Shown: in pieces, positions 31,574 to 60,856 of the stretch | Layout: every line of letters begins with the position of its first letter | Numbering within the stretch: position 1 is the stretch's first letter | NCBI RefSeq assembly: GCF_012489685.1 | Contig: NC_080043.1 | Location: 49,243,127 to 49,307,126, forward strand | Direction of reading: 5' to 3' | DNA: 64,000 nt | Source: Lotus japonicus | Taxonomy: Eukaryota > Streptophyta > Magnoliopsida > Fabales > Fabaceae | The notes under the pieces: model-generated | The model's input: only the letters and a program-made list of their open reading frames with translations | What the model was told of the DNA's origin: nothing | Database searches by the model: none | Position numbers and translations under genes: made by a program

Positions 31574-32226
31574 ATGTCGATGGCGGAGTGGTTTTCGATG
31601 GTATCTCCCTCGGGGGGGATCAGGTTTGAGTTGGTGGACCGTCATGCCCCCACTTCTTGGGTGATCGATGCTGTGGATCATCGAGCGACGTACCGGGGAA
31701 GGGTCATGGAGGACCGGACAGACGGGCGTAGACGTTTGACGAGGGGAGTGCTACGACGCATGGAGCTGAGCTTTGACTTGCCGCCTTCAGTTCGCTGTGG
31801 ACTAGGTACTGGTCGAGGACCACCAACACCAACTCCGACTTCATCTTCTTCCGATGACGAGGACCCATCCGAGATCGAGGTTGATGTTGTTGCACCTGTT
31901 GCGCCACCTCCTGCTACTGTTATCGATCCTACCGACGTGGCGTCGTCCTCGAGGCTCGTGGAGTCGAAGAGGGAGTCTGTTGCTCCATCTGCCTCACGTC
32001 GTTTTCCTTTTACCGTGTGGAACCCCTGGTTCGGGTGGTGGAGGAGGATGTTCTTACTGGAGAGGTGGATGTTGAGACGGGCTTGACTAGGACGGTGCGC
32101 AAGACAGTTAGGAGGGAGGTCGTGGACTTGGACACCAAGATGATCATGGTGGATTCCGACACGGACTCCGACAGCAATGTGGACAGCTACTCGCCGAGCG
32201 ACGAGGGAGAGGAGAAGGAGCTATGA
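31574..32226 (+). pseudogene. LTR-encoded ORF of E (one frameshift)
   Basis: The ATG directly follows CTGCCAG, an acceptor-like site. The start MSMAEWFSMVSPSGGIRFEL matches the ORFs in G, H and M. Then come YRGRVMEDRTDG, a basic region with LPPSVRCGLG, and a Pro/Ser/Asp linker (SSSSDDEDPSEIE). A frameshift near 32020 moves the rest into the frame ending at 32226. That tail has two SIM-like cores, REVVDLD and KMIMVDSDTDSDS, and a very acidic end. It is the longest C-terminus seen in this family here. Function unknown; see the LTR G copy for the gene structure. Confidence 0.6.
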
Positions 32227-32695: not shown

Positions 32696-33431
32696 ATGGG
32701 GATGTCCACAACGGCATTTGTAGCAACTAATCCTAAAGGCACTAAGTCGGATTGTGGCTTTCGTCGATAAAGTTTCAATATGTGCGCAAATGGGTTTTTA
32801 TACAGTTTTTCATATCTTTGACGACTCGATCAAAATCGGCGCACAACGGCGAGTGTTCTAGGTTGTTGGGTAAGTATAGTAGGGTAGTTCAAAAGAAAAA
32901 TCGGGAAAATCGGACAGTTTTACGAAAAGCTCGAAACTTTGAGCTCAGAAAGAGATAAAGAAACGCGATATAAAAGATGATCAGAGGTAAGAATCAAGTA
33001 GATTACCTCTGTGCCGTGAAATAGAGACAAAAAGCTCGAAGATCGGTCAAGAAACGACGAAGTTCTTCTCTCCTTTCTCCTCCAAACTCGCGGCCTCAAA
33101 GTGGGAATGTGGTAAGTTTTTGTGATTTTTTTACTATTTATAGGAGAGTAAAATCGCGGGAAAATGAATATTTCGCGATTCCGATTTTTGCAGCACGTTC
33201 ATCGGTGAATTCTAAGCGATATTCTGGCGAAAGAATTCCAGAACTCAAAACAAGTCTCTTGAATTTGAGAAAAACGATCCAAAAGCGGTGTAAGTTAATT
33301 TGCCCCGAAAAACTACTTTTTGCTGTGAAAGTCGGATGACAAAACTTCGTCCGGAAGAAAGTTTGAAAACGTCGAAAGAAATCTGACAACGCAGATGGAA
33401 ACTTCGTTAGAAGCTCCGAATAGAAAAAGTC
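32696..33431 (-). repeat. Fragment F of a giant LTR, inverted (U3, first exon, part of intron 1)
   Basis: On the minus strand it contains the TATA box (33135-33142), the GA-rich first exon, and a donor CAGAG/GTAATC near 33013. Its left end abuts the 3' end of LTR E. Its right end is fused head to head with LTR G near 33431, inside the U3 sequence TTCTATTCGGAGCTTC that both share. No ORF. Confidence 0.65.
33135..33142 (-). promoter_or_regulatory. TATA box of LTR fragment F
   Basis: The minus strand reads CTATAAATAGT. It lies about 320 bp from the TATA box of LTR G and fires in the other direction. Confidence 0.55.
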
Positions 33432-33455
33432 TTCATTTCCGCATTTTCCAAAACC

Positions 33456-33463
33456 TATAAATA
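33456..33463 (+). promoter_or_regulatory. TATA box of LTR G
   Basis: CCTATAAATAGC. Transcription would start near 33490, just before the AAACCCGCGAGC sequence conserved in all copies. The predicted first exon is then about 115 nt. Confidence 0.65.
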
Positions 33464-34264
33464 GCAAGAAAATGAAATTTTTTCAAAACCTTCACCCATT
33501 CAAACCCCAAACCCGCGAGCACCAAGGAGGAGGAGGAGGAAAAAGATTTTCGCCGTTTCTTGCCTGATCGCTGCACCGTTCGTTGCTATTCGAAGACATC
33601 GAGGTATAGATACTATCTCTCACTTTTGATCGTCAATTCTGTCGTCCTTCTCTATGTCTTTCTGTGCTCAAAGTTTTGAGCTTTTTGTAAAACTGTCCAA
33701 ATAACTCGATTTCTCTGTCTAAACTTATTCCCTGCATGCCCAAGAGCGTGTTTAGCGGATTACATTTTGCCGAATGTCGCCGAAATGCCGCCGAATTCCA
33801 ATTCTGCTTGAAAAACCCATTTTGAGGCAAAGTTTCGTTCTTTTGGTTTAAAACTCTCGACTTAGCTTAGCGCTAGTAGGATTAGTCGTCATAAACGTCG
33901 TTGGTGACGTCCCCATCCAATTTTTTTTTCGAAATTCCAATTTTGAAATTCTGAGCAGAAAATATTGACCAAAATACCCCTGCGACAGTTTTCGATCCGA
34001 AAATTTTTCCGAGCTTTGATTCGTCTTAGTTACGACTAATGATAACCTAGGAACCAAGTTTGATCAAAGAAAAATCGGCGCACACAATTATGATGTGTGG
34101 CCGAGAGCTCCTCCTTAGGGGGAGGAAAATTTTGTTTTCGAAAACTTGTCTTAACGCGTTAGATTATCGTACTTCGGAGTTTATAATGCTTCGTGTAACC
34201 CTAGTACTTATTGTTTGCTGAGTTTCTGACTCATTGTGATTGAATTCTGTGATTTTGCTCTAAG

Positions 34265-34342
34265 GTTCGTTTGAGGAATTCTGTGGAGCCGAGGAGGAAG
34301 ATTGTGAAGGAAAGTTTGAGGAACACCCTGGAGGACCTACAA
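34265..34342 (+). other. 78-nt exon-like block of LTR G
   Basis: The acceptor-like GATTTTGCTCTAAG precedes it and the donor-like CTACAA/GTGAGG follows. It is open in two frames. In one, ending ...RNTLEDLQ, a splice to 35829 would be in phase with the ATG of the LTR ORF. Confidence 0.6.
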
Positions 34343-35828
34343 GTGAGGGCTACTCACTGAATACTAGCTAATGCTTTAGGTGTCAATGAATTCGACTTGA
34401 TTTACTGTTTATGCACTTGATTGTGTTTGAATGGGAAAAATGTTTTCTAAGGCCACGGTTGACAATTGATAATCATTTATCGCTTGAATTGTTTTTGAGA
34501 TTGATTTACATGCTATGTGCTAAATGGTTAATCTAGGATGTGTTGATATTGATTCACATGCTATGTGCTAAATGGTTAATCTAGGATGTGTTGATATATG
34601 TGCCATGACTGTTGGATTGTGTTACTTTGATTATGAGATTACACATATATCTGTTGTACGTCAGAGAGGATAAACAGGCAGTTATGCCAGAGTTTATCAT
34701 GAGATTTTGGGAAAGTTTGACGGCACGAACAGAGGTTCGGGCCCTTATACACATTTTAATGGATCGAGACCTTCTCTGGGAATTAATTGGGATTATGGGA
34801 TCTTTTAAACTCATAAGATTAGAGACAAAACTAAATGGAAACTATTTTTACAAGGAAAATCCATAACACACTAAACAACCTCTGAACACTTTAAATAATA
34901 ATAACAATCTCAGATGAAAGCTTAGGGTTTGGATATTAGCTTTGGAAAATGAGAAGTGTCGCCGAATCCAAGATTTAGGAAAACTAATAAGTTTATGAGT
35001 ATTTTATAATCTTTTGCTCGATGAGCAGTTTTGTTGTTGGGCTATCTAAAAGATAAGCCGGGAAACGGATAGTTTCCGAGTATGTCGATACTCTTTGCTC
35101 GCTGAGCAGTTTTTGACCATCAGATGGAGATGGGTCGGATGATTCGAGAAATCATCATGAGATACTTTTCATAATTAATTGTCTTTTGTCGCAGAATCGA
35201 CATTTACCTTAGGGTATTCTTTTTACAGACAGTAAGTTAGCTAGAACACGTGACGACGTGACGAGTGAGGTCAGAGACGCTGTTTGGCTAATCACGTGCA
35301 TTCATTCACACATTTTGAGGTATTAACACGGCAGGAAGTCGGACCTCGGTGGATTCCAAAATGGTCATAAGACCCGGATTTCCACATAAGAACACAACGG
35401 CGATTCTTAGTAGCTGACGGAAATGGCAGACCTGCGGGTTCACTGCTGATCTGACTACAATTTTGTTTGGTATAAGAGACGCCCGAGCGGAAATGGTCCC
35501 ACCGTGGCTGGTGGTAGGGCTGACTTGATGGTGCCCATCCCTCCGGATTGCATCTTGTTCCTTAGCATTGCACTCATGCACCATGCATACTGACTTAGTT
35601 GCCGAGTGTGATTGTTACTTATTAATATTATTTGATACATGCTAATTGTTATTATTTGTTATTTATATTCATTGGGAATTATACAATTTATAATGCTGTC
35701 ACAAACTTCTAAGCCTATGTAGCTATTGTTTAAACTTTACCTATTGGATGTACTATTATGTAATTCTTTGAGTTGACCCTCGCGCGTGCTACCTGTGTAT
35801 GGGGGGCTATGTATGCCCTTTTTGTCAG

Positions 35829-36275
35829 ATGTCGATGGCAGATTGGTTCAAGATGGTCATCCCTTCGGGGGGGACTAGGTTCGAGATGTTGGATCAGGAC
35901 ACCCCGGGCTCATGGGTGGTCAACCCCGCCGGTCACCGAGCCATTTATTCGGGGCGAATAATGGAGGATCGCGTCGACAGGATGGGAAACTTGACGCACA
36001 GAGTTTTGAGACGCTACACCGTCAGCTTCAACCTACCACCAGGTGTGCACTGTGGACTTGGAGTCGTTGTACCACCACCACCGTCGCCTTCGGACGACGA
36101 GGACCCCTCGGAGGAAGTGCCTGTGGGAGGGACTTCTTCGGACTCTAGCTCACCTACTGTTGTCGTTGCTGCCGACCTTGGTTCAAGACCTGGACCCGTG
36201 AGATCCGCCCAGGAGCAGATTCCAGCAGCGAGAGGAGAGATGATCGGAGACATCGACCTAGTCGTCTTGGATTAA
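35829..36275 (+). CDS. LTR-encoded ORF of G, 148 aa
   Basis: The ATG lies directly after the acceptor-like TTTTTGTCAG. The protein starts MSMADWFKMVIPSGGTRFEM and continues with SWVVNPAGHRAIYSGRIMED, then VSFNLPPGVHCGLG, then a Pro/Asp/Ser-rich linker (PSPSDDEDPSEE), and ends GDIDLVVLD. A TAA at 36273 stops it exactly before an acidic tail (DSDDDHGDA, to 36305) that the copy in LTR H still has in frame, so this copy is truncated by one codon change. It has no catalytic signature, membrane span or Cys/His cluster. It should act as a small, mostly disordered adaptor; that is inference. Expression would use the LTR promoter and two introns. Confidence 0.62.
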   Translation: MSMADWFKMVIPSGGTRFEMLDQDTPGSWVVNPAGHRAIYSGRIMEDRVDRMGNLTHRVLRRYTVSFNLPPGVHCGLGVVVPPPPSPSDDEDPSEEVPVGGTSSDSSSPTVVVAADLGSRPGPVRSAQEQIPAARGEMIGDIDLVVLD

Positions 36276-37008
36276 GATTCAGACGACGACCACGGTGATG
36301 CATAGCTGGGAGTGTTGGGGTGTACTCCTCTAGTCAGGATTAGGGTAGGAGTAGCGTTGTGGCTCTGGTCTTCAGTTTCTCATTTTGGGGCAGGGTAGGT
36401 CCCCGACCTTTAGCTTTTTGTGTGGTTCTCTTTACGGGGATTTCAGAGAGTTGGTCGGACTAGGAGGTCTTCGGACTGTTTTTGGGCTGACCTACTTTCG
36501 TTGGAGGACTGTATTTCAGAATACTTGATCTTTTGTTTCAGTTTGTACATATTTGCCCACGGGCACTACTTTTCCGTCACTGGAGGTTACTCGTGACGTG
36601 ACATGCTACATATTGCGGGAACTGTAAATATATCTGTACATTAGTTGTTTTTATCTTTCGTCGATAAGTTTTATTTTGTCAAGTCTTTATTTACTTAGAA
36701 CAAATATCGAAAAAAAAAATATTCACGTTTTTCCGCTTTGTTTTCTTTTTGGTTACTAAAGTGACGCCACCGAAATCGGGGTGTTACACTTCACAGGTGG
36801 CTCCAGTTTTCTCGCCTCGCGCCCGGGGCGGTTCCTCCGACAAGCCTCCCTCCAGTGCGAAAGTTACCCTACCACCTCCTGGTCAAAACATGATGCCATC
36901 TGCTAGTGCTTCATCGCCCAGTCATAGCCTCGCCCCGCCCCGCCTCGGGGCTCTGCAAATCGAGAGCCTCCATATTCTCTGTCCCTGACGTCAGCGCAAA
37001 TTGCGAGG

Positions 37009-39376: not shown

Positions 39377-39869
39377 TGTAACACCCCGATTTCGGTGGCG
39401 TCACTTTAGTAACCAAAATAAACTTAATGCGGAAAAACGTGAATATTTTTTTTTTTTAATAATAACTAAGACGAGACTAAATTAAATAAAACCCAAAAGC
39501 GAAATCTACAGAACTAATATACAATAAATATAACAGCCCCCGCTGTAAGTAGCTAGCCACGTCACGAGTAAACCTCCAGTGACGGGTAACAAGAAAAGTA
39601 GCGCCCGTAGGCAATATGTACAAACCAAATCTAAAGGTAAGTGTCCGCAACACCATCCCTCAAAAACTGAGAATAAGCTGGCCCATCGGCCTGAAGCAAG
39701 ACCTCCTAAGTCCAACCAACTCTCTGTGATTCCCGTAGAGAAACCACACAAAAAGTTATAGGCGGGAAACTACCCTGTCCCAAAAGAAACAAATGATGTT
39801 CAGAGCTAAGACTCTACTCCTACACTAATCCCATCTTGAGGAGCTCACACCGGCACTAAAACCTACATG

Positions 39870-40025
39870 CTAGCATGATCGTCGACCGAATTCGAAATCC
39901 AGAACGACCTAGTCTATGTACACCATCCGTCATCCTCTCGCTACCGCGACGCGCTCCTGTTCCAGCATCCCAACCTAGTTCCCCCCGAAGGGTGAACCAT
40001 CATGAACTAGCCCGCCAAAGACATC
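39870..40025 (-). pseudogene. LTR-encoded ORF of K, internally deleted
   Basis: The acceptor-like ATTGTCAG and the ATG (MSLAG) survive, but a TAG follows after five codons. The sequence jumps from the region of PSGG directly to the region of ERVAVARG, losing the middle third, and the acidic tail is degraded. LTRs L and J carry the same deletion, so it predates their spread. Confidence 0.7.
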
Positions 40026-40743
40026 TGACAATGGGCGTTTGTCCGCCAAAGCACACACAGAAGACGCGAGGGTCAACTCCAACGAATTATGTAAATAATA
40101 GCAAGGATAGATACAGATAATAGAGTAGCCACTTAGGCTTATAACTAGGGATAACATCCTAGGGTTGCATATTCCACAATGAATATAAACGACAGTAAAT
40201 CACAGTTAACATGCCTCAAGTAGAACTAACAAGTATCAAAACACACTCATCAACTAAGTCAGTATGCATGTTGCATGAAGTGATATGCAGGTTAACCCAG
40301 TCAACCAATATGCAATCCGGAAACGGATGGACATCAAACGGATCAATCCTAGCACCAGCAACGGTGGGACCATTTCTGCCCGCGTGCCTCTTACACCACA
40401 CAAAGGTAGTCAGATCAGCCGTAACCCGTAGGTCTGCCATTTCGGTCTGCTACAAGAGACGTCTACAGACGCTCTATCGCGGAAATCCGGGTCTTATGAC
40501 CATTTTGGAATCCACCGAGGTCCGGTATCACGCCGTGTATTAACCTCCTATGTGTGCATGAATGCAATGTGATTAACCAAACAACGTCTCCGACCTCACT
40601 CGACACGTCGCCACGTGTTCTAGGTAAATTAATGTCTCTAAAAGCTTACCCTAAGGTAAAATTCGATTCTGCGACAAAATACAATAATCATAAAATGAGT
40701 GCAACCACTCACGATAACTCTTCGAGTCATCAATGCTCTCACG

Positions 40744-40985
40744 AAGTCTCACGCTTCAGTGGAGTCTCACACATTCACAAAGTCTCACGCTTCAGTGAAG
40801 TTTTATGCTTTCACAAGGTCTCACGCCTCAGTGAATTTACACACTTGCACGAAGTCTCACGCTTCAGTGAAGTTTCATGCTCTCACAAGGTCTCACGCCT
40901 CAGTGGAGTTCCATGCTTTCCACAAGGTCTCACGCCTCAGTGGAGTATCCCGCATTCACAAGGTCTCACGCCTCAGTGAAGCTTC
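40744..40985. repeat. Minisatellite of about 36 bp, 7 units, in LTR K
   Basis: Units share GTCTCACGC-[CT]-TCAGTG. The same array has 7 units in LTR L and 4 in LTR J. Because the unit is about 36 bp it keeps long frames open on the plus strand, but these are by-products. It lies in the transcribed part of the LTR, inside the predicted second intron. Confidence 0.85.
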
Positions 40986-41691
40986 TCGGCTCATCCCATG
41001 GATGGCTAATCAAACTGCTCAACGAGCGAAGGAGTATCAACATACTCAGAACTTTCCAATCTCCTCAACACTTGGATCCGACGACACTTCTCGTTTTCCA
41101 AAAACTAAGATTTGCATCCAAAGCTCCCTTTCGAGTTTATTATCATTAATTGAAGATTTAAAGGTTGTTTAATGTCTTATGAGTTTTCTTTTCAAAATAA
41201 TATCATTTTAGTCTTATCGCAAAAGCTTATAAGTTCTCGGGATCTCCTAATCCCCAACTGACACCAGAGAATGCCTCGATCCATACAACACCACAACAAG
41301 GCCCGAATCTCATTCGTCCTTTCAAGCTTTCTCAAAACTCTCAAAATAAAATCGGCATGACCTGCCCGCTTTTCTCACCGTTCAGAAACTCAGATTCCAG
41401 TGCACAGCATATTTAAATCATCACAATCAACAACATGTCATATATCAATACATCTCATCATAAACACTTAGCACATAGCATATACAGCATGCACCACACA
41501 TCCTAGATTACCCACATAGCACATAGCATGTAAGTCAATCTCAAAAACATTCAGTAGATGAATCATCTACATTGTCAGCCGAAGCCTCAGAAAACATTTT
41601 CCAATCACACACAATTCCAGTGCATAAACAGTAAACAATGTCGAAACCTCGACCCTAAGCATTAACTAGAGATTCAGTGAGAAGCCCTCAC

Positions 41692-41769
41692 TTGAAGGTT
41701 CTCCAGGATTAACTTCCAACTCTTCCTCACGATCCAAGTGTTGTTCCTCAGGAAATTCCTCAAAAGTTC
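41692..41769 (-). other. 78-nt exon-like block of LTR K
   Basis: On the minus strand TTTTAAAG precedes it and CTTCAA/GTGAGGG follows. It is open in the two frames also open in LTRs G, H, I and M, despite many substitutions. Confidence 0.6.
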
Positions 41770-42584
41770 CTTTAAAACAAAATCACAGAAATACTATCAG
41801 AATCTATCGGAAACTAAGCTATTGATACTTACTAAGGTCACTCGAAGTAATCTATACCCTAAGGTACGATAAACTAGCGCGAAAGGACAAGTTTTCGGAA
41901 AAGGAAATTTTCCTCCTCCCCCCTAATAGGGCTCGGCCACTTTGTGCAATTATGGGGCTCGATTTTTCTTCGATCAAACTTGGTTCCTATGCTTTCATAA
42001 GCCGTAACTAAGGGTATTCTGAACTCGGAAAAATTATCGGATCAAAAACTGTCGCAGGGGTATTTTGGTCATGATTTTTAACTTAGGATTTTTCAAAACT
42101 GAAATCCCAAAAATAAAATTTTGCAGGGACGTCACCAACGACGTTTATGACAACTAATCCTACTAGCACTAAGCTAAGGCGATAGTTTTCAGCCTAAAGG
42201 TTGAAGCTTTTCTTCAAAAACTCCAAAAATGGGTATTTTAGGCTCAAATTGATTCCAGCGGAATTCCGGCGACATAACGGAAAATCTAACCTGGCAGAAG
42301 TGATCTTGGGTGCATAAGGAAGAGGTTTAGAATCAGAAATGAAAGATTCAGGATAGTTTTGCAAAAACCCATAAACTATCCGCTCAGAAAACTCTACAGA
42401 AAAGCTATGGAAAAAGCGATCAGAGGTAAGGATTAGCGACTATACCTCGAGGCCTTGAAGCAGCAACTGATTGATCGACGATCAAGCAAACGATGAAGAA
42501 AATCTTCTCCTCCTTCTTCCTCTTTGTAGCCGCGGGTTTGGGTGGGGAAATGGGTAGTTTTTTTGTTTTTTCTTCCTTTCTTTG

Positions 42585-42594
42585 CTATATATAG
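42585..42594 (-). promoter_or_regulatory. TATA box of LTR K
   Basis: The minus strand reads CTATATATAGC. The predicted start lies near 42560, with a roughly 115-nt first exon ending at the donor at 42445. Confidence 0.6.
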
Positions 42595-43300
42595 AAGGTG
42601 GAAATTCGCGGGAAAATGAAAGTTTCGCGAATCTGATTTTTCCGGCGTCATTCTCCATGAATTATTAGATATGTTTTGGCAAAAGAATTCCAAAACTATA
42701 AAGAGGTCTCCTTGTATTTTTGGCAACTAAAGCATAGTCGGTATAAAACTATTTTACCCGATAAGTTGCTTTTTGCATCGAATGTCGGAATAGAAAACTT
42801 CCTTCTGAAGAAAGATTGAAATCATCAAGAGAAATGGGTGTACGCGTGTAGAATCTTCATTTGAAGCTCCGAATAGAAAAAGTCTTCATTGTCGGTTGAT
42901 TCTAGGGTTTTGAAAAACCAGGGTTTCGTTTTCGGCAAACTTCCGATGATTGGAATCGGACGTTCGTAGATCCTAGAGTTTCGCCTCGAAACGATGGTGA
43001 TATATGGAAAAAGAGAAGTTCTAACATTTCTCTGAAGATTTTAGGAATTAACTGCCATCGTGCCTAAAAGTGAAAATTAGCTATATACTAGGGTTTCTGA
43101 CCTAGGTTTAAGCGTAAAACGTTCGTGTTATAACTTTTATCGATCATAATGCAATCCTTGAACTTTTCCTGAACTTTCTCCTTCATAAATATATTTCATT
43201 TAATGAACTTTTGTTCAGGTTTCCCTTCACATTACATCAACCCTAATCGTGAATAAGAAGTTTATTCACCTAGCATAAGCTTAAAAACTTGGGCCTTACA

Positions 43301-44843: not shown

Positions 44844-46036
44844 TCAAAGCTTAGACAGTGTAAGTAAGTCAGGTGTGTTTGCACACGCTACGAAAGTAAT
44901 GGAATATACTATACTGAAATGAGAAAGAATGGTTAGAAGGTTACCATCGTTCTTGCGCTCTCCTCTGACAAATCCCTCAGCTCTCTCACCGTCCATGGTG
45001 TAAACTCTTGCTTTGGCAGCAGAACGCTTCCCACGAGCAGTGTTCACAGTTGGTTCCGTCTTAGGTGCTCTGCACTGACCGGCAGTGTGCCCCATTTTGT
45101 TACAATTGAAGCACTTGGGCCTCTTGTTGGAACAAGCATTAGCATAATGCCCCAGTTCCCCACATCTGAAACAGGTCATCTCCTTCTTCAAAGTCTGATC
45201 TCCGGAACCTCCAGCAGTACCCGCCATGGGTCTGTAAGATCCTGAAGTAAATCCTCTTCCAGCAGGACGCTGATATGGCCCCCTGCTCTGAAATTTCTCT
45301 CTACTCTGAAAATTTTGAGAGCTCGACCTCATCGGCCCTCCAGTTCCAGCCCGGTTTAGCCTCCGGTTCTTCATCAGTTCCACCTCCGTGGCTTTCTCAA
45401 CCAAGGATTGGAATCGCATGATTCCCAGCGGCCTCACTGAGTCCTCAATATCCGGCCTCAGTCCATTGACAAAACGCTTGCACATATAGCGCTCGTTCAC
45501 GTGATCATGAAAGAATTGGAAATGCTTCGCCAAAGATTCCAGCTTCGAAGCAAATTCCGGTACTGACATACCTCCCTGACGGAGTGTCAGAAATTGTGAC
45601 TCCCGCTCATCCCGAGCACTTGTTGGAAAGTATTTCTCCAAGAATGCAGTTCGGAAGGAGTTCCAGTTGATCTCCTCATGGTTATCCTCCATAATCCCCC
45701 TGGCGCCCTTCCACCAGTACTCAGCATCACCGAGCAGTAGATAAGTCGCCATGCCCACTTTGGCACCCTCAACAGTCTGCAGCACGCCAAATATCTTCTC
45801 GACCCCTGAATCCAGAGATCTGCTTTATCCGGGTCAGTACCACCAGAGAACTTTGGTGGGTTTTGCCTCCTGAAATCATTGAGGCCTTTGTTCTGGTCCA
45901 GAGTTACTTCCCTCTGGCGCTGATGTTGTTCACGTGCCTCCTCAGCAGCACGCCTCATCGCACTATCATTTGCTTGTGCTGTCACGGCTTGGGCCATAGT
46001 GGCCATCATCTCAGCTAGCTGATTGGTATTCACCAT
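44844..46036 (-). pseudogene. gag of the gag-only element (one frameshift)
   Basis: It starts MVNTNQLAEMMATMAQ at 46036, with a Gln/Glu/Arg-rich N-terminus. A single-base shift near 45808 (within ADLWIQG) splits it; from 45785 the frame is open. The capsid region (LLLGDAEYWWKGAR, FLEKYFPTSARDERE) is followed by a basic linker and two zinc knuckles, CFRCGELGHYANAC and CFNCNKMGHTAGQC. After RVYTMDGERAEG, where protease should begin, the sequence departs and stops at 44844. The family gag assembles particles around RNA. With one frameshift this copy is probably dead, though a close relative could be intact. Confidence 0.82.
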
Positions 46037-46232
46037 GTTCTGTTAAGTTAAACAAACAGTTAGTACTCATCATAAGATAGCATCTAGTATAACTATACAA
46101 TATGATTAAGCAATAACTTCAATCAATTTTTAAGCGAAAAATCGCTTGCAGACAATCAATTTTCACTCTATGCAGAGTCACACAACCTAGCACAGAAGAC
46201 CTATTCCCCAACAACTCCCGAAAGACTCGACC

Positions 46233-46246: not shown

Positions 46247-46249
46247 CAA

Positions 46250-49200
46250 TGTAACACCCCGATTTCGGTGGCGTCACTTTAGTAACCAAAATAAACTTAA
46301 TGCGGAAAAACGTGAATATATTTTTTTTTTTAATAATAACTAAGACGAGACTGAATTAAATAAAACCCAAAAGCGAAATCTACAGAACTAATATACAATA
46401 AATATAACAGCCCCCGCTGTAAGTAGCTAGCCACGTCACGAGTAAACCTCCAGTGACGGGTAACAAGAAAAGTAGCGCCCGTAGGCAATATGTACAAACC
46501 AAATCTAAAGGTAAGTGTCCGCAACACCATCCCTCAAAAACTGAGAATAAGCTGGCCCATCGGCCTGAAGCAAGACCTCCTAAGTCCAACCAACTCTCTG
46601 TGATTCCCGTAGAGAAACCACACAAAAAGTTATAGGCGGGAAACTACCCTGTCCCAAAAGAAACAAATGATGTTCAGAGCTAAGACTCTACTCCTACACT
46701 AATCCCATCTTGAGGAGCTCACACCAGCACTAAAACCTACATACTAGCATGATCGTCGACCGAATTCGAAATCCAGAACGACCTAGTCTATGTACACCAT
46801 CCGTCATCCTCTCGCTACCGCGACGCGCTCCTGTTCCAGCATCCCAACCTAGTTCCCCCCGAAGGGTGAACCATCATGAACTAGCCCGCCAAAGACATCT
46901 GACAATGGGCGTTTGTCCGCCAAAGCACACACAGAAGACGCGAGGGTCAACTCCAACGAATTATGTAAATAATAGCAAGGATAGATACAAATAATAGAGT
47001 AGCCACTTAGGCTTATAACTAGGGATAACATCCTAGGGTTGCATATTCCACAATGAATATAAACGACAGTAAATCACAGTTAACATGCCTCAAGTAGAAC
47101 TAACAAGTATCAAAACACACTCATCAACTAAGTCAGTATGCATGTTGCATGAAGTGATATGCAGGTCAACCCAGTAAACCAATATGCAATCCGGAAACGG
47201 ATGGACATCAAACGGATCAATCCTAGCACCAGCAACGGTGGGACCATTTCTGCCCGCGTGCCTCTTACACCACACAAAGGTAGTCAGATCAGCCGTAACC
47301 CGTAGGTCTGCCATTTCGGTCTGCTACAAGAGACGTCTACAGACGCTCTATCGCGGAAATCCGGGTCTTATGACCATTTTGGAATCCACCGAGGTCCGGT
47401 ATCACGCCGTGTATTAACCTCCTATGTGTGCATGAATGCAATGTGATTAACCGAACAACGTCTCCGACCTCACTCGACACGTCGCCACGTGTTCTAGGTA
47501 AATTAATGTCTCTAAAAGCTTACCCTAAGGTAAAAGTCGATTATGCGACAAAATACAATAATCATAAAATGAGTGCAACCACTCACGATAACTCTTCGAG
47601 TCATCAATGCTCTCACGAAGTCTCACGCTTCAGTGGAGTCTCACACATTCACAAAGTCTCACGCTTCAGTGAAGTTTTATGCTTTCACAAGGTCTCACGC
47701 CTCAGTGAATTTACACACTTGCACGAAGTCTCACGCTTCAGTGAAGTTTCATGCTCTCACAAGGTCTCACGCCTCAGTGGAGTTCCATGCTTTCCACAAG
47801 GTCTCACGCCTCAGTGGAGTATCCCGCATTCACAAGGTCTCACGCCTCAGTGAAGCTTCTCGGCTCATCCCATGGATGGCTAATCAAACTGCTCAACGAG
47901 CGAAGGAGTATCAACATACTCAGAACTTTCCAATCTCCTCAACACTTGGATCCGACGACACTTCTCGTTTTCCAAAAACTAAGATTTGCATCCGAAGCTC
48001 CCTTTCGAGTTTATTATCATTAATTGAAGATTTAAAGGTTGTTTAATGTCTTATGAGTTTTCTTTTCAAAATAATATCATTTTAGTCTTATCGCAAAAGC
48101 TTATAAGTTCTCGGGATCTCCTAATCCCCAACTGACACCAGAGAATGCCTCGATCCATACAACACCACAACAAGGCCCGAATCTCATTCGTCCTTTCAAG
48201 CTTTCTCAAAACTCTCAAAATAAAATCGGCATGACCTGCCCGCTTTTCTCACCGTTCAGAAACTCAGATTCCAGTGCACAGCATATTTAAATCATCACAA
48301 TCTACAACATGTCATATATCAATACATCTCATCATAAACACTTAGCACTTAGCATATACAGCATGCACCACACATCCTAGATTACCCACATAGCACATAG
48401 CATGTAAGTCAATCTCAAAAACATTCAGTAGATGAATCATCTACATTGTCAGCCGAAGCCTCAGAAAACATTTTCCAATCACACACAATTCCAGTGCATA
48501 AACAGTAAACAATGTCGAAACATCGACCCTAAGCATTAACTAGAGATTCAGTGAGAAGCCCTCACCTGAAGGTTCTCCAGGATTAACTTCCAACTCTTCC
48601 TCACGATCAAAGTGTTGTTCCTCAGGAAATTCCTCAAAAGTTCCTTTAAAACAAAATCACAGAAATACTATCAGAATCTATCGGAAACTAAGCTATCGAT
48701 ACTTACTAAGGTGACTCGAAGTAATCTATACCCTAAGGTACGATAAACTAGCGCGAAAGGACAAGTTTTCGGAAAAGGAAATTTTCCTCCTCCCCCCTAA
48801 TAGGGCTCGGCCACTTTGTGCAATTATGGGGCTCGATTTTTCTTCGATCAAACTTGGTTCCTATGCTTTCATAAGCCGTAACTAAGGGTATTCTGAACTC
48901 GGAAAAATTATCGGATCAAAAACTGTCGCAGGGGTATTTTGGTCATGATTTTTAACTTAGGATTTTTCAAAACTGAAATCCCAAAAATAAAATTTTGCAG
49001 GGACGTCACCAACGACGTTTATGACAACTAATCCTACTAGCACTAAGCTAAGGCGATAGTTTTCAGCCTAAAGGTTGAAGCTTTTCTTCAAAAACTCCAA
49101 AAATGGGTATTTTAGGCTCAAATTGATTCCAGCGGAATTCCGGCGACATAACGGAAAATCTAACCCGGCAGAAGTGATCTTGGGCGCATAAGGAAGAGGT

Positions 49201-50175
49201 TTAGAATCAGAAATGAAAGATTCAGGATAGTTTTGCAAAAACCCATAAACCATCCGCTCAGAAAACTCTACAGAAAAGCTATGGAAAAAGCGATCAGAGG
49301 TAAGGATTAGCGACTATACCTCGAGGCCTTGAAGCAGCAACTGATTGATCGACGATCAAGCAAACGATGAAGAAAATCTTCTCCTCCTTCTTCCTCTTTG
49401 TGGCCGCGGGTTTGGGTGGGGAAATGGGTAGTTTTTTTGGTTTTTTCTTCCTTTCTTTGCTATATATAGAAGGTGGAAATTCGCGGGAAAATGAAAGTTT
49501 CGCGAATCTGATTTTTCCGACGTCATTCTCCATGAATTATTAGATATGTTTTGGCAAAAGAATTCCAAAACTATAAAGAGGTCTCCTTGTATTTTTGGCA
49601 ACTAAAGCATAGTCTGTATAAAACTATTTTACCCGATAAGTTGCTTTTTGCATCGAATGTCGGAATAGAAAACTTCCTTCTGAAGAAAGATTGAAATCAT
49701 CAAGAGAAATGGGTGTACACGTGTAGAATCTTCATTTGAAGCTCCGAATAGAAAAAGTCTTCATTGTCGGTTGATTCTAGGGTTTTGAAAAACCAGGGTT
49801 TCGTTTTCGGCAAACTTCCGATGATTGGAATCGGACGTTCGTAGATCCTAGAGTTTCGCCTCGAAACGATGGTGATATATGGAAAAAGAGAAGTTCTAAC
49901 ATTTCTCTGAAGATTTTAGGAATTAACTGCCATCGTGCCTAAAAGTGAAAATTAGCTATATACTAGGGTTTCTGACCTAGGTTTAAGCGTAAAACGTTCG
50001 TGTTATAACTTTTATCGATCATAATGCAATCCTTGAACTTTTCCTGAACTTTCTCCTTCATAAATATATTTCATTTAATGAACTTTTGTTCAGGTTTCCC
50101 TTCACATTACATCAACCCTAATCGTGAATAAGAAGTTTATTCACCTAGCATAAGCTTAAAAACTTGGGCCTTACA
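46250..50175 (-). repeat. LTR L (5' LTR of the gag-only element), 3926 bp
   Basis: Nearly identical to LTR K throughout, including the ORF wreck (46743-46898), the 7-unit minisatellite (about 47617-47859), the 78-nt block (48566-48643) and the TATA box near 49460. As the 5' LTR it would drive the element. Confidence 0.92.
48566..48643 (-). other. 78-nt exon-like block of LTR L
   Basis: Same borders and length as in LTR K; the donor side reads CTTCAG/GTGAGGG on the minus strand, closer to consensus than in K. Confidence 0.58.
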
Positions 50176-50180
50176 TAATA

Positions 50181-50328
50181 CTCTACTCCTACACTAATCA
50201 CATCTCGAGTAAGTCGCTCGGTGGCCAGCGGGGTCGACCACCCATGAACCGTAGTCCTCCTGATCAAGCTTCTCCAACCTAGTTTCCCCCGAAGGGTGAA
50301 CCATCGTGAACCGGTCCGCCATGGACAT
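50181..50328 (-). pseudogene. LTR-encoded ORF of M, N-terminal relic
   Basis: The acceptor-like CTTTGTCAG, the ATG and a decayed MSMAD-type start are present, with the VVDPAGHRAT region readable in a second frame. The C-terminal half lies across the K-L insertion at 39376 or is deleted. Confidence 0.5.
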
Positions 50329-50999
50329 CTGACAAAGGCGTAGTCCGCCCAAACACACACAGAAGACGCGAGGGTCAACTCCAAAGAATTATATAATTAA
50401 TAAAACCAGATATATAGGATAATAGTTATTAGCCTTTCAGGCTTATAAGTTTAGGGATAACATCCTAGGGTTGCATGTATCACAATGAATATAAAAGATC
50501 GTAATAACAATTAGCATGCCTCAAATAGGATAAACAAGTACCAATCACACTCAGCAACTAAGTCAGAATGTATGTTGCATGAAATGCAATGCTGGTTGAC
50601 AAGATGCATCCCGGAAGAAGGATGGACACCAACGAGTCAGCCCTAACACCGGCCATAGTGGGACCATTCCGCTCGGGCGTCTCTTACACCACACAAAAGT
50701 AGTCAGATCAGCAGTGAACCCGTAGGTCTGCCATTCCGTCTGCTACTGAGGACCACCGTAGTGTCCTAAATATGGAAATCTGGGTCTTATGACCATTTTG
50801 TAATCCACCGAGGTCCGGTATCACGCCGTGTATTAACCTCAAAATGAGTGCATGAATGCATGTGATTAGCCAAACAACGTCTCCGACCTCACTCGACACG
50901 TCGCCACGTGTTCTAATTAACTTAATGTCTCTAAAAGAATACCCTAAGGTAAATGTCGATTCTGCGACAAAATGAATTAATCAAAAGAAGAAGAATGTA

Positions 51000-51240
51000 C
51001 TTTGGAACTCATGGTTCCCGGCTAAACTTTAGATAGCCAAACATTAAACTGCTCATCGAGCGAAAGAGTACGATTGTACTTGGAAACTTATAGTTTCCGG
51101 CTAAACTTTAGATAGCCAAACATTAAACTGCTCATCGAGCGAAAAGAGTACGATTGTACTTGGAAACTTATAGTTTCCGGCTAAACTTTAGATAGCCAAA
51201 CAATAACCTGCTCATCGAGCGAATGAGTATCAACATACTC
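51000..51240. repeat. Tandem array of about 80 bp, 3 units, in LTR M
   Basis: GCTAAACTTTAGATAGCC recurs at 51021, 51100 and 51180. Each unit also holds short hairpins: GGAAACT-TAT-AGTTTCC and GCTCATCGAGC. Single copies of similar hairpins lie at the same place in LTRs G and I. Confidence 0.85.
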
Positions 51241-51838
51241 GGAAACTTGTAAGTTTCCTCAAAACTTGGACTCGACGACACTTCTCATATTTTCAAAACT
51301 AATATACAGGCTCTAAGCTCTTATCTAAGGTTGTTATCATTGTTCAAGGGTTTTCGAGATTGATTAATGTCTTATGAATTTTCCTTGAGAAAATAGGTTT
51401 CTTTTAGTCTTATAACGTTTCCTACGAGTTTCAGGGATTCCATAATCCCAAATAATTTCTGAGAAGGTCTCGATCCATTAAAACATAACAAGGTCCGAAC
51501 TTCGTTCGTCCTTTCAAACTCTCTCAAAATCTCATAAAAATTCGGCATGACCTGCCCGCAATCCTCACTCCTCAGAATCACAGTTATCAGTGGAATAACA
51601 TAAATCAGCTTAATCAATAAACATAAACAGCATATTCCAACACATCCTAGATTAATCATTTAGCACATAACATGTGAATCATTTAGCACGCAATATCATG
51701 GCATCAGGTACTCAACAAGATCGGCCGAAGCCTCAGAAAACATTTCAGGCATTTAGCAGTTAAGTGCATAACACATAAATCAAGTCGAATTCGTCGACAC
51801 CTAAGGCATTATCTAGTAATTCAGAGAGTAGCCCTCAC

Positions 51839-51916
51839 CTGTAGCTCCTCCAGCGTTTTCCTCACAAGCTCCTTCACGTTCCTCGCCTTGATCTCCAGGA
51901 ACCTCCTGAACAGAAC
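51839..51916 (-). other. 78-nt exon-like block of LTR M
   Basis: On the minus strand it follows TTGCTTAAG and ends CTACAG/GTGAGGG, a near-perfect donor. In the ATG-compatible frame it reads to ...RKTLEELQ. Confidence 0.62.
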
Positions 51917-53580
51917 CTTAAGCAAAAATCACGGAAATTAACACGATGAATCAAAAACTCAGGAAACGATAAGTCCTAGGGTGACACGGTACATTACAAA
52001 CTCCGCGGTACGACAATCTAACGCGTTAAGACAAGTTTTCGAAAAAGTCGGATTTCCTCCCCCCCTTGATATAGCTCTCGGCCACTTTCCTTAATTGGGA
52101 GGGTCGATTTTTCTTCGATCAAACTTGGTTCCTAGGTTACAATACGCCGTAACTAAGGCGAATCTAAACTCGGAAAAATTTTCGGATCGAAAACTGATAT
52201 AGGGGTAGTTTGGTCATTATTTTCAGCTCAGAATTTCAAAATTGGATTTTTGAAAAACAAATTGGATGGGGACGTCAACAACGACGTTTATGACGACTAA
52301 TCCTATTAGCACTAAGCCAATTCGATGGTTTTCAGCTAAAAGGTTGCGACTTTGCCTAAAAATGGGTATTTGATGCAAAAATTGATCCCGGCGGCATTTC
52401 GTCGACATCTGACAAAATCTAATCTGCAGAACACGCTCAGGAGCATGCAGGGAATAAGTTTAGACATTGAAATCAGCTTATTTGAACAGTTTTACAAAAA
52501 GCTCAAAACTTTGAGCACAGAAAGACATAGAAGAAGTCGACAGATCTGACGATCAGAAGAGAGATATAGTTTACCTACCTCAAGGTCTTCGATAGCAATG
52601 ATCGGTGAAGCAAACGGGCAAGAATCGGCAAAATCAGGATCCTCTCTTTCTCTCTTGGAGCTCGCGGCCTCTTGGGAAGAAATGGGTAAGTTTTTGCAAA
52701 ATATCTCATTTTTCTAGCTATTTATAGGTTTTGGAAACTGCGGAAAAATGATTTTTTCGCGATTCCGACTTTTCCTGCGCGTTCCTCTGCGAATTCTAAG
52801 ATAGGTTCTGGCGACAGAATTCCAGAACTCAAAGCAGGATTCTTGGAATTAAACCAAACGATCCAAAGTCGGTGTGAGTCGGTGTAAGTCGGTTTATCCC
52901 GAAAAACTACTTTTTGCAGTGATCGTCGGAAGAGAAAACTTCCTTCTGAAGAAAGATTAGAAATAACGAGAGAAGTAGGGGAACGCGGGTGGAATCTTCA
53001 TTTGAAGCTCCGAATAGAAAAAGTCTTCATCGTCTGTCGATCTTAGGTTTCTCGAACTATCAGGGATTCCGTTTCGGCAATCTTCCGAGAATTGGAATTT
53101 GACGTTCGTACATTCCAGGGTCTCGCATCGAAATAATTGTTTATAGACGAAAAAGAGAAGTTCTAACATTTCTCTGAAGATTTTTGGAATTAGTTTCCAC
53201 CGTGTCCCAATGTGTAAATTCACTATTAACTAAAACCTTTGACCTAGGATTAGGCGTATGTTAGTCGTGCTATAACTCTTATCGGTTTTTCGATAAACTT
53301 CTTGGACTTTTCCTGAACCTTATCCTTAACAAATTTATTTTAATCAAATAAACCCTTATATTTTATTCACTTATCCAAAGCCTGAAACTTGGGCCTTACA
53401 CAATCGGCCTAAAAGAAGACCTCCTAAGTCCAACCAACTCTCTGTGATTCCCGTAAGGAAACCACACAAAAAGCTATAGGTGGGAAACTACCCTGTCCCC
53501 AAGGAAACAAATGACAGTCAGAGCTAAGACTCTACTCCTACACTAATCCTATCTCGAGGAGCTCACACCAGCACTAAAAC

Positions 53581-54057
53581 CTACGTGCTAGCATGATCGT
53601 CGTCTGAATCAGAATCCAGAACGACCAAGTCTATGTACACAACCCGTCCTCCTCTCGCAACCGCGATGCGCTCCGGTGCTGGTCTCTCGGGCTTAGGGCC
53701 CGAACCATGATCATCTATAACAGCAACGGTGGGTGAACTGGACTCTGAAAAATGCACTCCCACAGGCTGCTCCTCTGAGGGGTCCTCATCATCCGAAGAC
53801 GACGGTGGCGGTGGTGGTCCTCCTGCTCCTGGTCCGCAATGCACACCGGGTGGCAAGTTGAAACTGACAGTTCATCTCCGCAGCACTCCTGACGTCAAGT
53901 ATCCTACCCTATCTACATGGTCCTCCATGATCCGCCCCGAGTACGTCGCTCGATGGCTCGCGGGGTCAACCACCCACGAACCGGGTCATCCTGGTCTATC
54001 ATCGTATCTAATCCCCCCCGAAGGGTTGACCATTGTGAACCAGTCCGCTATGGACAT
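53581..54057 (-). pseudogene. LTR-encoded ORF of H, intact C-terminus
   Basis: The ATG at 54057 follows CTTTGTCAG (minus strand) and gives MSIADWFTMVNPSGG. A frameshift and a stop break the middle (about 53860-54010). From MPPGVHCGPG at 53856 the frame is open to 53581: a Pro/Ser/Asp-rich linker (SSSDDEDPSEEQ), then ERIAVARGG, then VVYIDLVVLDSDSDDDH. This shows the family C-terminus uninterrupted: a Val/Ile/Leu core directly followed by Ser and Asp. Confidence 0.65.
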
Positions 54058-55513
54058 CTGACAAAGGCGTTGTCCGCCAAAACACACACAGAAGACGCGA
54101 GGGTCAACTCCAAAGAATTATGTAATTATTAAACCCAATAGGTACAGATAAGAGAATAGCCACTTAGGCTTATAACTAGAGATAGCATCCTAGGGTTGCA
54201 TATTCCATAACGAACATAAATGACAGTAATAACAATTAACATGTTCCAAATAGGATTAACAAGTAACAATCACACTCAGTAACTAAGTTAGTATGCATGT
54301 TGCATGATATACAGATGTCGGTTAACCTAGTTAACCAATATGCATTCCGGAAAGGATGGACATCAACGGATCAGCCCTAGCACCAGCCACGGTGGGACCA
54401 TTTCGGCCCGCGTGCCTCTTATACCTGAAGGCCTGCCATTTCGGTCTGCTACTAAGAGTCTCCTAGCAGCGCTCTTACGCGGAAATCCGGGTCTTATGAC
54501 CATTTTGGAATCTGCCGTGGTCCGGCATCTCACCGTGTTTAAACCACTTAATGAGTGCATGCAATGCAGTGATTAGCCAAACAACGTCTCCGACCTCACT
54601 CGACACGTCGCCACGTGTTCTAGCTAAATTAATGTCTCTAAAAGCTTACCCTAAGGTAAAGTCGATTCTGCGACAAAAGACACTTCTTTACAACGACATA
54701 GTAACTCATGATGATCTCCAAATCATCCGACTCATCTCAATCCGATGGTCAAAACTGCTCAATGAGCAAAGAGTATCAACATACACGGAAACTATCAGTT
54801 CCCGGCTTATCCCTCGGATAGCCCAACAACACAACTGCTCTCAGAGCACAAGAGTACCATCATACTCAAAACTTATCAATATTCTCAACACTTGGATCCG
54901 ACGACACTTCTCGTTTTCCAAAACATAGGTTTGAATCCTAAGCTTCCTTTCAAGTTTGTTATCATTATTCGAAGATTTAGAGGTTGTTTAATGTCTTATG
55001 GGTTTTCTTTGCAAAATAATATCCTTTTAGTCTTATCGCAAATCTTATAAGTTCTCGGGATCTCCTAATCCCAACTGACTCCAAAGAATGTCTCGATCCA
55101 TGAAAAACCCTAACAAGGCCCGAATCTCATTCGTCCTATCAAACTTTCTCCAAAATCTCAAAATAAAATCGGCATGACCTGCCCGCTATTCTCACTACTC
55201 AGAATCACAAATATCAGTGAAAAGACATAATTAAATCAGCACAATCAACCAACATGTCATATATCAACACATCCAAGAATAATCACGTAGCACTTAGCAT
55301 ATAAGGCATGCATCACACATCCTAGATTACCCACTTAGCACGTACCATGTAAATCAATCTAAAAAACATTCAGTAGATGAATCATCTACATTGTCAGCCG
55401 AAGCCTCAGAAAACATTTTTTCCAATCAAACACAAACAAGTGCATAAACAGTAAATCAATGTCGAAAGCATCGACCCTAAGCATTAACTAAAGATTCAGT
55501 GAGTAGCCCTCAC

Positions 55514-55591
55514 CTGTAGATTCTCCAGGGTTGTCCTCGAACTCTTCTTCACAAGCGAAGCCTTGTTCCTCGGGAAACTCTTCAAATGAAC
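55514..55591 (-). other. 78-nt exon-like block of LTR H
   Basis: The acceptor side is ACTTTAAAG, the donor side CTACAG/GTGAGGG on the minus strand. Open in two frames. Confidence 0.62.
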
Positions 55592-55606
55592 CTTTAAAGT
55601 AATACC

Positions 55607-58600: not shown

Positions 58601-58689
58601 TTTGCTCGTTGAGCTGTTTGTTTGGCCATCGAGATGGTGAGCCATGGTAAGTTGAAAGGTCACTGAGTGCGAGATGCATTCTTTTGCTT
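55607..58689 (+). repeat. Giant chromovirus LTR I (5' two thirds)
   Basis: It starts TGTAAGACCCAAG at 55607, inserted in LTR H. It has a TATA box (CTATATAGC near 56321) and a second TATA-like run (TATATATATG near 56642), an (AC) run at 56676-56691, a first exon ending TTCAAG/GTGTCG near 56768, and the 78-nt block (57558-57635). It is cut at 58689 by LTR J before the ORF exon. Otherwise non-coding. Confidence 0.8.
57558..57635 (+). other. 78-nt exon-like block of LTR I
   Basis: GCTCAAAG precedes it and TTCGAG/GTTAGGG follows. It is open in the same two frames as most other copies. Confidence 0.58.
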
Positions 58690-60856
58690 GTAACACCCCG
58701 ATTTCGGTGGCGTCACTTTAGTAACCAAAATAAACTTAATGCGGAAAAACGTGAATATTTTTTTTTTCGATAATAACTAAGACAAGACTGAATTAAATAA
58801 AACCCAAAAGCGAAAAGTAATAGAGCTAATATACAATATATAAACAGCCCCCGCTGTAAGTAACAACCTCGTCACGAGTAACCTCCAGTGACGGAAAGAA
58901 AAGTGTAGCGCCCGAAGGAAAAATGTACAAACCAAATCTAAAGGTAAGTGTCCGCAACACTATCCCTCAAAACTGAGAATAAGCTGGCCCATCGGCCTGA
59001 AACAAGACCTCCTAAGTCCAAACAACTCTCTGTGATTCCCGTAAAGAACCACACAAAAAGCTATCGGTGGGAAACTACCCTGTCCCCAAAGAAAACAAAT
59101 GATGTTCAGAGCTAAGACTCTACTCCTACACTAATCTCATCTCAAGGAGCTCACACTAACACTCATTCCTACATGCTAGCGTGATCGTCGTCCGAATTTG
59201 AAATCCAGAACGACCTAGTCTATGTACACCATCCGTCCTCCTCTCGCTACCGCGATACGCTCCAGTTCCCGCATCTCAACCCTAGTTCCTCCCGAAGGAT
59301 GAACCATCATGAATCAGCCCGCCAAAGACATCTGACAAAGGGCGTTTGTTCGCCAAAGCACACACAGAAGACGCGAGGGTCAACTCCAAAGAATTATGTA
59401 AATAATAGCACCAATAAATATAAATAAGATAATAGCCACTTAGGCTTATAACTAGGGATAACATCCTAGGGTTGCATATTTCCACAAAGAATATAACGAC
59501 TGTAAATCACAGTTAACATGCATCAAGTAGAACTAACAAGTATCAAAACACACTCATCAACTATGTCAGTATGCATGTTGCATGAAATGATATGCAGGTT
59601 AACCCAGTCAACCAATATGCATTCCGGAACGGATGGACATCATCGGATCAGCCCTTCACCAGCCACGGTGGTGCCATTTCGGCCCGTGATGCCTCTTACT
59701 CCAACATCATCATGTAGTCAGATCAGCATAAAACCCGAAGGCCTGCCATTTCAGTCTGCTACTAAGAGTCACCTAGCAGCGCTCTTACGCGGAAATCCTG
59801 GTCTTATAACCAATTTTGGAATCCGCCGTGGTCCGGTATCTCGCCGTGTTTAAACCACTTAATGAGTGCATGCAATGCAGTGATTAGCCAAACAACGTCT
59901 CCGACCTCACTCGACACGTCGCCACGTGTTCTAGCTAAATTAATGTCTCTAAAAGCTTACCCTAAGGTAAAGTCGATTCTGCGACAAAATACAATAATCA
60001 TAAAATGAGTGCAACCACTCACGATGACTCTTCGGGTCATCAATGCTCTCACGAAGTCTCACGCTTCAGTGAAGTTTCATGCTCTCACAAGGTCTCACGC
60101 CTCAGTGGAGTTCCATGCTTTCCACAAGGTCTCACGCCTCAGTGGAGTATCCCGCATTCACAAGGTCTCACGCCTCAGTGAAGCTTCTCGGCTCATCCCT
60201 TGGATGGCTAACAAACTGCTCAACGAGCGAAGGAGTACCAACATACTCAGAACTTACCAAACTCCTCAACACTTGGATCCGACGACACTCCTCGCTTTTC
60301 CAAAACTATGATTTGACTTCCAATGCCTTCCTTCGAGGTTGTTATCATTACTTAAAGATTTTGAGGTTATTTAAGGTCTTATGAATTTTCTTTATAAAAT
60401 AGATTCCCTTTTGTCTTATCGCAAGTCTTATACATTTGCAGGATCTCCCAATCCCAAGTCGCTTCCAGAGGAGGTCTCGATCCACTAAACAAAATTAAGG
60501 CCCGAACCTCGTTCGTCCTATCAAACTTTCTCCAAACTCTCAAAATAAAATCGGCATGACCTGCCCGCTATTCTCACCATTCAGAATCTCAGATTCCAGT
60601 ACAGAGCATATTTAAATCATCACAATCAACAACATGTCATATATCAATAAATCGCATCATAAACACTTAGCACTTAGCATATAAAGCATGCACCACACAT
60701 CCTAGATTACCCACATAGCATGTAAGACAATCTCAAAAACATTCAGTAGATGAATCATCTACATTGTCAGCCGAAGCCTCAGAAAACATTTTCAATCACA
60801 CACAATCCAGTGCATAAACAGTAAACAATGTCGAAACATCGACCCTAAGCATTAAT
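58690..60856 (-). repeat. Giant LTR J, 3' half
   Basis: It begins (minus-strand end) TGTAACACCCCGATTTCGG. The ORF relic (59175-59331, minus) has the same internal deletion as K and L, and the minisatellite has 4 units (about 60052-60185). It breaks off at about 60856, some 30 nt before the 78-nt block, where pol sequence of another element starts. J belongs to the K-L subfamily. Confidence 0.82.
59175..59331 (-). pseudogene. LTR-encoded ORF of J, internally deleted
   Basis: The acceptor-like CCTTTGTCAG and the ATG (MSLAG) are kept; the middle is missing exactly as in LTRs K and L and the remainder is out of frame. Confidence 0.6.

Follow-up and report, generated by a model that had tools for sequence, protein, structure and literature searches.

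The window analysed here, 64,000 nucleotides of the Lotus japonicus contig NC_080043.1 (forward-strand positions 49,243,127 to 49,307,126; positions below are those of the window), is a nest of Ty3/gypsy elements with long terminal repeats (LTRs). The LTRs contain an open reading frame (ORF) that is a coding gene under purifying selection. We consider it likely that every intact LTR has its own promoter followed by a transcription unit that is alternatively spliced. RNA synthesis would start just past the LTR TATA box, and exons 1 and 2, forming a leader that usually has no ATG, would be joined to an acceptor inside the LTR. That acceptor immediately precedes the start codon of an accessory protein (158 amino acids in family A, up to 222 in family B). 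In complete elements, the leader would alternatively be joined to an acceptor beyond the primer-binding site (PBS), just before the gag ATG. RNA that is unspliced, or spliced at intron 1 only, would retain the PBS and could serve as the template for reverse transcription. Solo LTRs would keep the promoter, leader, introns, ORF and LTR tail, so that many of them could supply the protein in trans. The first-pass annotation of this DNA had proposed that the LTR carries a spliced gene ahead of gag. The selected ORF, the intron signals within the LTR and the loss of intron 1 bear out the core of this, but the mechanism was incomplete: splicing of the same leader to gag was not considered and is an addition made here.

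The window elements appear to be Tekay-like chromoviruses with LTRs of about 4 kb and gag-pol. Family A LTRs for which both ends were found are 3.8–4.1 kb long, start with TGTGAGAC and end with GGTGTTACA, and their TATA box lies 650–710 bp inside. The PBS, TGGTATCAGAGC, is located beside a 5′ LTR ending in TGTTACA, and the target-site duplications (TSDs) are 5 bp long. We take this PBS to be of the tRNA-Met type, a trait of Tekay/Del elements. Two relatives elsewhere in the genome, L048 and L049, carry gag, protease, reverse transcriptase (RT) and integrase. Pfam matches on L049 comprise gag, zf-CCHC, protease, RT, integrase H2C2, rve and a Tf2-1-like SH3 domain; no chromodomain was listed at E≤0.1 in L049, and a chromodomain-like C-terminus is seen in L048 and L049 by eye only.

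The ORF ends about 500 bp before the LTR end, placing this sense ORF between promoter and gag within the LTR and not in the internal region. Intact family A ORFs encode 158 amino acids and end with DIDLVVLDSDSDDDHGDA; in family B the length is 212–222 amino acids in 15 of 20 rows and 192–194 in the other five. The B subfamily is represented by at least 150 matches (the best 150 of 6421 candidates) with identities of 78–100%, and 118 of these 150, counted from the listing, contain no stop in the matched stretch. Selection was measured in alignment rows picked for open or nearly open frames (19 pooled; 13 of family A; 20 of family B, drawn from the best-scoring 150). In these rows the pooled pN/pS is 0.333 in frame versus 0.99 and 1.21 in the other two frames, and 30 overlapping non-coding windows give 0.53–1.19 (median 0.86). 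The dN/dS is 0.332 in family A and 0.369 in family B, where the first 77 codons give 0.229 and the shifted frames 1.02 and 1.21. In these rows, the Ka/Ks comparison that the first-pass annotation had called for comes out well under 1 in both families. Between A and B, the N-terminal domain has a dN of 0.317 with dS saturated. Substitutions common to several copies fall on codon positions 1, 2 and 3 in numbers of 36, 34 and 72 in B (p=6e-5) and 3, 2 and 10 in A (p=0.02). Singletons are flat, with 57, 45 and 52 in B (p=0.49) and 20, 20 and 32 in A (p=0.14). In B the two classes of change differ significantly in this respect (p=0.011). Because shared changes favour the third position and singletons do not, we read this as selection that acted while the lineages were copying, followed by drift after insertion. 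A run of G in codons 13–15 (35866–35895 and homologues) consists of seven G in 20 of 32 rows and of 4–12 in nine, and was not found in three; several frame breaks of the ORF begin there.

The promoter and splice sites were compared in 32 aligned LTR rows: copy E, two LTRs belonging to one element of the window, and 29 of 39 genomic loci, the other 10, partial or rearranged, being excluded. In E the predicted sites, with a slash at the boundary, read GAG/GTATAG (GT at 33604), TAAG/GTTC (34265), CAA/GTGAGG (GT at 34343) and TTTTTGTCAG/ATG (ATG at 35829). The TATA box, exon 1 donor, exon 2 bounds and pre-ORF acceptor named in the first-pass annotation are each where it had put them. The first GT is kept in all 31 rows with sequence and the second in 32 of 32, as is the AG of acceptor 1 (32/32), and the AG of acceptor 2 is kept in 31 of 32. 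One locus (L035) has lost the latter and another (L038) the ORF ATG. The acceptor and ORF start, said to recur on both strands, are found as CAG/ATG seven times in the window (31574+, 35829+, 59331−, 54057−, 50328−, 46898− and 40024−). For comparison, of the 126 GTs and 114 AGs that E has between 33610 and 35800, 49 and 53, respectively, are still present in both copy D and P5, the 5′ LTR of a gag-only element. D and P5 retain all four splice sites and the B-type copy three, at segment identities to E of 0.67–0.82 (D), 0.62–0.75 (P5) and 0.46–0.62 (B). Scored with plant splice-site matrices, donors 1 and 2 rank 1–3 among 123–172 GTs in L012, D, P5 and B; E's own donor 2 scores less well, at rank 11 of 135. 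For acceptor 1 the rank is 2–15 in E, L012, D and P5.

The combined leader of exons 1 and 2 is free of ATG in 26 of 31 rows, with a chance probability of 0.012 given the LTR composition, and intron 2 contains 28–47 ATGs. Exons 1 and 2 were therefore rejected as coding exons; some copies, such as the source of the NCBI gene model P0001, have an ATG in exon 2. Of the three-exon gene originally envisaged, the splice-site layout is conserved, but the first two exons look like a leader and not like coding sequence.

A trace of splicing was sought as intron loss. The whole genome (554 Mb) was searched for the exon 1–exon 2 junction with up to two mismatches, giving four matches, against none for the reversed pattern used as a control. 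Two are the LTRs of a single element, L073 (G000:C6:27109211-27118784), which are 3116 bp each, differ at five positions and are flanked by the TSD GTCAC. A third is L074. The fourth (L075, C5:51559756) was rejected as an ordinary unspliced LTR. In both LTRs of L073 and in L074, exon 1 runs directly into exon 2 at the predicted edges of intron 1; intron 1 is exactly absent from real genomic copies. Reverse transcription of an RNA that was spliced at intron 1 and still contained the PBS would leave both LTRs without the intron. A corresponding search with an A-type exon 2–exon 3 junction yielded two matches, both of which are, by eye, ordinary acceptor contexts rather than intron-2-less copies. 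Only ordinary acceptors were returned, so the case for the predicted use of acceptor 2 is made by gene models and conservation.

Among the eight named NCBI models, P0001 and P0005 show the join of exon 2 to exon 3 as predicted. The P0001 protein has an initial MEL, then KRKVVKESLRNTLEELQ, directly before MSMADW, which is the exon 2 reading joined to that of exon 3. P0005 has the same join; its exon 2 resembles the one in copy D. Both were matched by eye at the level of the protein models.

Strong acceptors also precede gag. In L048, L049 and the gag-only window element, the stretch between PBS and gag contains GTACTAAC and ends TTAACAG/AACATG (the end differs in L050), and a second window element has the gag acceptor context TTCTATTTCTAAGCAG/GATTTTCATCATG. 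These gag acceptors score 6.2–7.2; the best LTR acceptors score 7.0 in E, 7.0 in L012, 6.5 in D, 4.2 in P5, 4.4 in B and 3.7 in C. We infer that splicing of the leader past the PBS yields gag mRNA, the unspliced RNA being the template. On this view, a single leader would be followed by either of two alternative first-ATG exons, the LTR ORF or gag.

Six of the encoded LTR-ORF proteins were compared with Pfam, and none matched a family at E≤0.1. A profile search gave 17 matches at E≤1 among 7990 candidates scored; the nine with a named organism are all from Lotus japonicus and eight carry no organism, so that no named relative outside Lotus appeared. The structure model of one protein (P0003) is weak, with a mean pLDDT of 58.6 and blocks of 67–82 over the first 70 residues. 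It suggests one helix and four strands in these residues, then disorder, and a short strand at a C-terminal motif; Foldseek found no match to it at E≤0.001. The protein has a small N-terminal domain, which is probably beta-rich, and an acidic tail. The C-terminal motif resembles a SUMO-interacting motif (SIM): IDLVVLDSDSDDD in family A, IYISSDDEE in C and VVDLETELIVLDSDTD in P0016. A strict SIM pattern, defined as a hydrophobic core followed by an acidic/serine stretch, is present in 12 of 13 A proteins and in the single C protein. SUMO ligases take part in plant transposon silencing. Because of this and the SIM-like motif, our best guess, held with low confidence, is that the protein may be a nuclear regulator aiding the element against host silencing.

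To ask what remains of the unit in isolated LTRs, we examined 22 copies for their ends, and both ends were recognised in 17. Ten of these have identical 5-bp flanks and are solo LTRs, six have a PBS, and one has neither. Six of the ten solo LTRs keep a full-length ORF (150–158 amino acids) and the ORF of the other four is broken. Structurally complete mini-genes thus exist as solo LTRs, but the earlier statement that every solo LTR is one goes too far. Copy E itself has the sites but is damaged at both ends: its ORF stops at 148 codons, and its U3 region is missing beyond 24 bp before the TATA box, with an inverted LTR piece (32912–33437) in its place. A 99% twin of E, L009, lies about 132 kb further along. 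Because the two have the same breakpoint and inverted piece, their likeness points to duplication of the locus and not to two insertions. L073 and the window element bounded by P5 and its 3′ LTR, P3 (interior 43301–46249), are both gag-only. Their gag ends are truncated in a similar way, and in neither can a working LTR ORF be recognised; they look like a recently moved non-autonomous group. A more far-reaching version of the proposal, which we put forward only tentatively, is that a single leader is spliced either to a regulator encoded by the LTR or to gag, and that solo LTRs leave hundreds to thousands of promoter-driven copies of this regulator that could act in trans, for example via SUMO-dependent silencing, for autonomous and gag-only elements alike.

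Several observations weigh against the alternatively spliced unit. Acceptor 1 is not recognisable in B, and acceptor 2 ranks 3–4 in family A but lower in D (27 of 142), P5 (61 of 166) and B (43 of 102). Nor does the gag acceptor score highest everywhere, given the LTR acceptor scores of E, L012 and D. Calculated from the composition of the exons themselves, the chance of an ATG-free leader rises to 0.137, and within family A the leader exons diverge faster (11–12%) than the introns (5–9%). In E, ten codons ahead of the ORF start, the ATG at 35799 is in frame and open into the ORF. The search with the A-type junction found no copy lacking intron 2, and AGGT at both ends of intron 1 permits deletion by microhomology. 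The other six named NCBI models do not show the exon 2–exon 3 join: in P0006, exon 2 appears to be read in a different frame; P0002 continues through the acceptor; and the models P0008, P0010, P0011 and P0012 begin with the ORF ATG. The contrast between shared and singleton changes, taken alone, is not significant in A (p=0.28). The strict SIM pattern is present in just 6 of 20 B proteins, and 122, 243 and 95 of 2000 shuffled proteins (A, C and B; 5–12%) contain it. Finally, P5/P3 and L073 moved recently although they have no working ORF. For this reason the ORF is not needed in cis; their movement fits a product that is supplied in trans, or one that is dispensable.

Could the donors and leader serve gag only, while the LTR ORF has a separate promoter in the AT-rich sequence immediately before it and is expressed unspliced? 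This is a real rival because an in-frame ATG precedes the acceptor in E and in most of the 20 B rows, the frame being open upstream. It also agrees with the scores of the gag acceptors, with the weakness of acceptor 2 in B, D and P5, and with TATA-like runs about 100–135 bp ahead of the ORF in L072 and L071, the only B-type loci that were read at length (the beginning of L071 is not LTR sequence). Nevertheless, we regard it as unlikely. Five out-of-frame ATGs lie between 35693 and 35813 in E, all seven ORF starts in the window have CAG/ATG, the AG of acceptor 2 is almost always kept, and exon 2 precedes exon 3 in P0001 and P0005. Four NCBI models of B start at MSM despite the upstream in-frame ATG in most B copies, and the 48 nucleotides upstream in B show no third-position bias (in just 10 variable columns). 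A captured or host-recruited gene riding in the LTR, with a few host copies selected and the rest debris, is far less probable still. NCBI does annotate copies as uncharacterised host genes, but the selection signal resides in changes common to many transposed copies, with singletons looking neutral; the ORF is found in the LTRs of both A and B, whose N-terminal domains are 0.32 dN apart; and the profile search named no relative outside Lotus. We give slightly less credence again to the notion that the intron-1-less LTRs arose by chance at unused GT and AG sites, for which the AGGT repeats would provide the microhomology. The leader of E would permit 12,674 deletions of more than 100 bp flanked by 4-bp repeats. 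L073 and L074 have different exon 1 sequences and an identical, precise join, which one event or two would explain equally, and the donors rank at the top in four copies of different subfamilies. The spliced unit with alternative acceptors is the reading that we retain. As an observation in its own right, the fast divergence of the leader exons (33486–33603 and 34265–34342) looks as if there were diversifying pressure or recombination.

The window also contains a second gypsy element whose LTR (family C) also has an ORF (10571–11074, ending EVIYISSDDEE) and a strong donor, AAG/GTAAGG, with the GT at 9414. A search with this ORF gave no match at E≤0.1 among 44 candidates. In the same LTR an ATG directly follows a TAG acceptor-like site (10529) and is separated from the ORF by a stop. 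The PBS of the P5/P3 element lies just past its LTR (reverse complement at 46235).

Table 1. Positions of the LTR copies and of the predicted transcription unit in the window.
Feature	Positions	Strand	Remarks
LTR of second gypsy element (family C)	8676..11412	+	PBS at 11416; boundaries by eye
LTR ORF of B-type copy (MSMAEWFSMVSPSGG...)	31574..32086	+	behind CCAG/ATG
LTR copy E	33432..36788	+	5′-truncated; ends ...GGGGTGTTACA
TATA box TATAAATA	33456..33463	+	same 8 letters in 29/31 rows; TATATATA in P5 and P3
Putative exon 1, ATG-free GA-rich leader	33486..33603	+	start about 30 nt past TATA assumed
Putative intron 1	33604..34264	+	GT...AG, 661 nt
Putative exon 2	34265..34342	+	78 nt; ends CAA/GTGAGG
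Putative intron 2	34343..35828	+	1486 nt; 44 ATGs in E
LTR ORF in E, MSMADWF...	35829..36275	+	148 codons, early stop
3′ LTR (P3) of P5 element	39377..43300	−	24 differences in 3923 aligned sites vs P5
gag of P5/P3 element, two frames	44844..46042	−	ATG behind TACTAAC...TTAACAG/AACATG
5′ LTR (P5) of gag-only element	46250..50174	−	TSD TATTA; ORF dead (MSLAG, then stop)
LTR copy D	50206..53357	−	four splice sites kept; ORF start 50328, truncated ORF
Further LTR copy	53403..55594	−	ORF start 54057, broken by stops
LTR copy	58689..60855	−	ORF start 59331, broken

Genes encoded within LTRs are familiar from retroviruses: sag of mouse mammary tumour virus (MMTV) lies in the LTR and nef overlaps U3, and both are expressed from spliced RNA. 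These resemble the Lotus ORF in being protein-coding genes inside an LTR and in their splicing, which in Lotus is predicted. They lie in U3, upstream of the LTR start site, whereas the Lotus ORF is downstream of the TATA box. Because of this position, one Lotus LTR alone holds both promoter and gene. Among plants, Steinbauerova and colleagues reportedly surveyed extra ORFs and found those of chromoviruses in grasses alone. The closest known counterpart by description is ORF0 of Tekay/Del elements, reported for rice Retrosat2, RIRE3 and RIRE8 and for maize and sorghum relatives (Gao et al. 2012, PMC3485330); Retrosat-2 is placed in Tekay/Del in the available text of PMC6317226. As far as the available text of PMC3485330 goes, ORF0 lies upstream of ORF1 with no statement on its position relative to the LTR, the word intron is absent, and ORF0 is reported in grasses only and is absent in soybean. 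Sunflower Tekay elements of group 2 have a 5′ additional ORF of 402 amino acids (PMC11728184, available text). The Lotus ORF shares with the Retrosat2 type its setting in a Tekay chromovirus (with long LTRs in Retrosat2), as one sense ORF of unknown function before gag that evolves faster than gag-pol. Compared by description, it differs in being inside the LTR, behind conserved splice sites, in a legume and, at 158–222 amino acids, shorter than the 402 of sunflower; the internal position of ORF0 is our reading of the sizes given in PMC3485330, which does not state it in the available text.

Splicing as a means of expressing retrotransposon genes, predicted here for the Lotus LTR, is also described for Ogre, with an intron between gag-prot and rt (PMC6317226), and for the env-like gene of Bagy2 (PMC7264820). 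In both, unlike in Lotus, the available texts place the Ogre intron and the Bagy2 gene in the internal region and describe no LTR-borne gene, and additional ORFs of plant LTR elements are likewise described in the internal region (PMC7264820). In the literature consulted, mostly papers open without subscription and partly available, we recognised no report of a spliced ORF inside plant LTRs. By comparison with these descriptions, the Lotus LTR ORF appears to be a variant of the 5′ additional ORF of Tekay elements that is new in its LTR location and splice signals.

The usual view of solo LTRs is that of dead remnants whose only activity is as promoters. Should they hold a gene that is intact, under selection and interrupted by introns, the regulation that an element encodes can persist after the element itself is gone. 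The proposed organisation, if true, would also explain why some Tekay LTRs reach 3–4 kb: they would house a gene together with the splicing signals by which gag mRNA is set apart from template RNA. The loss of introns from LTRs would moreover be a record of past splicing kept in DNA, readable in any genome without RNA.

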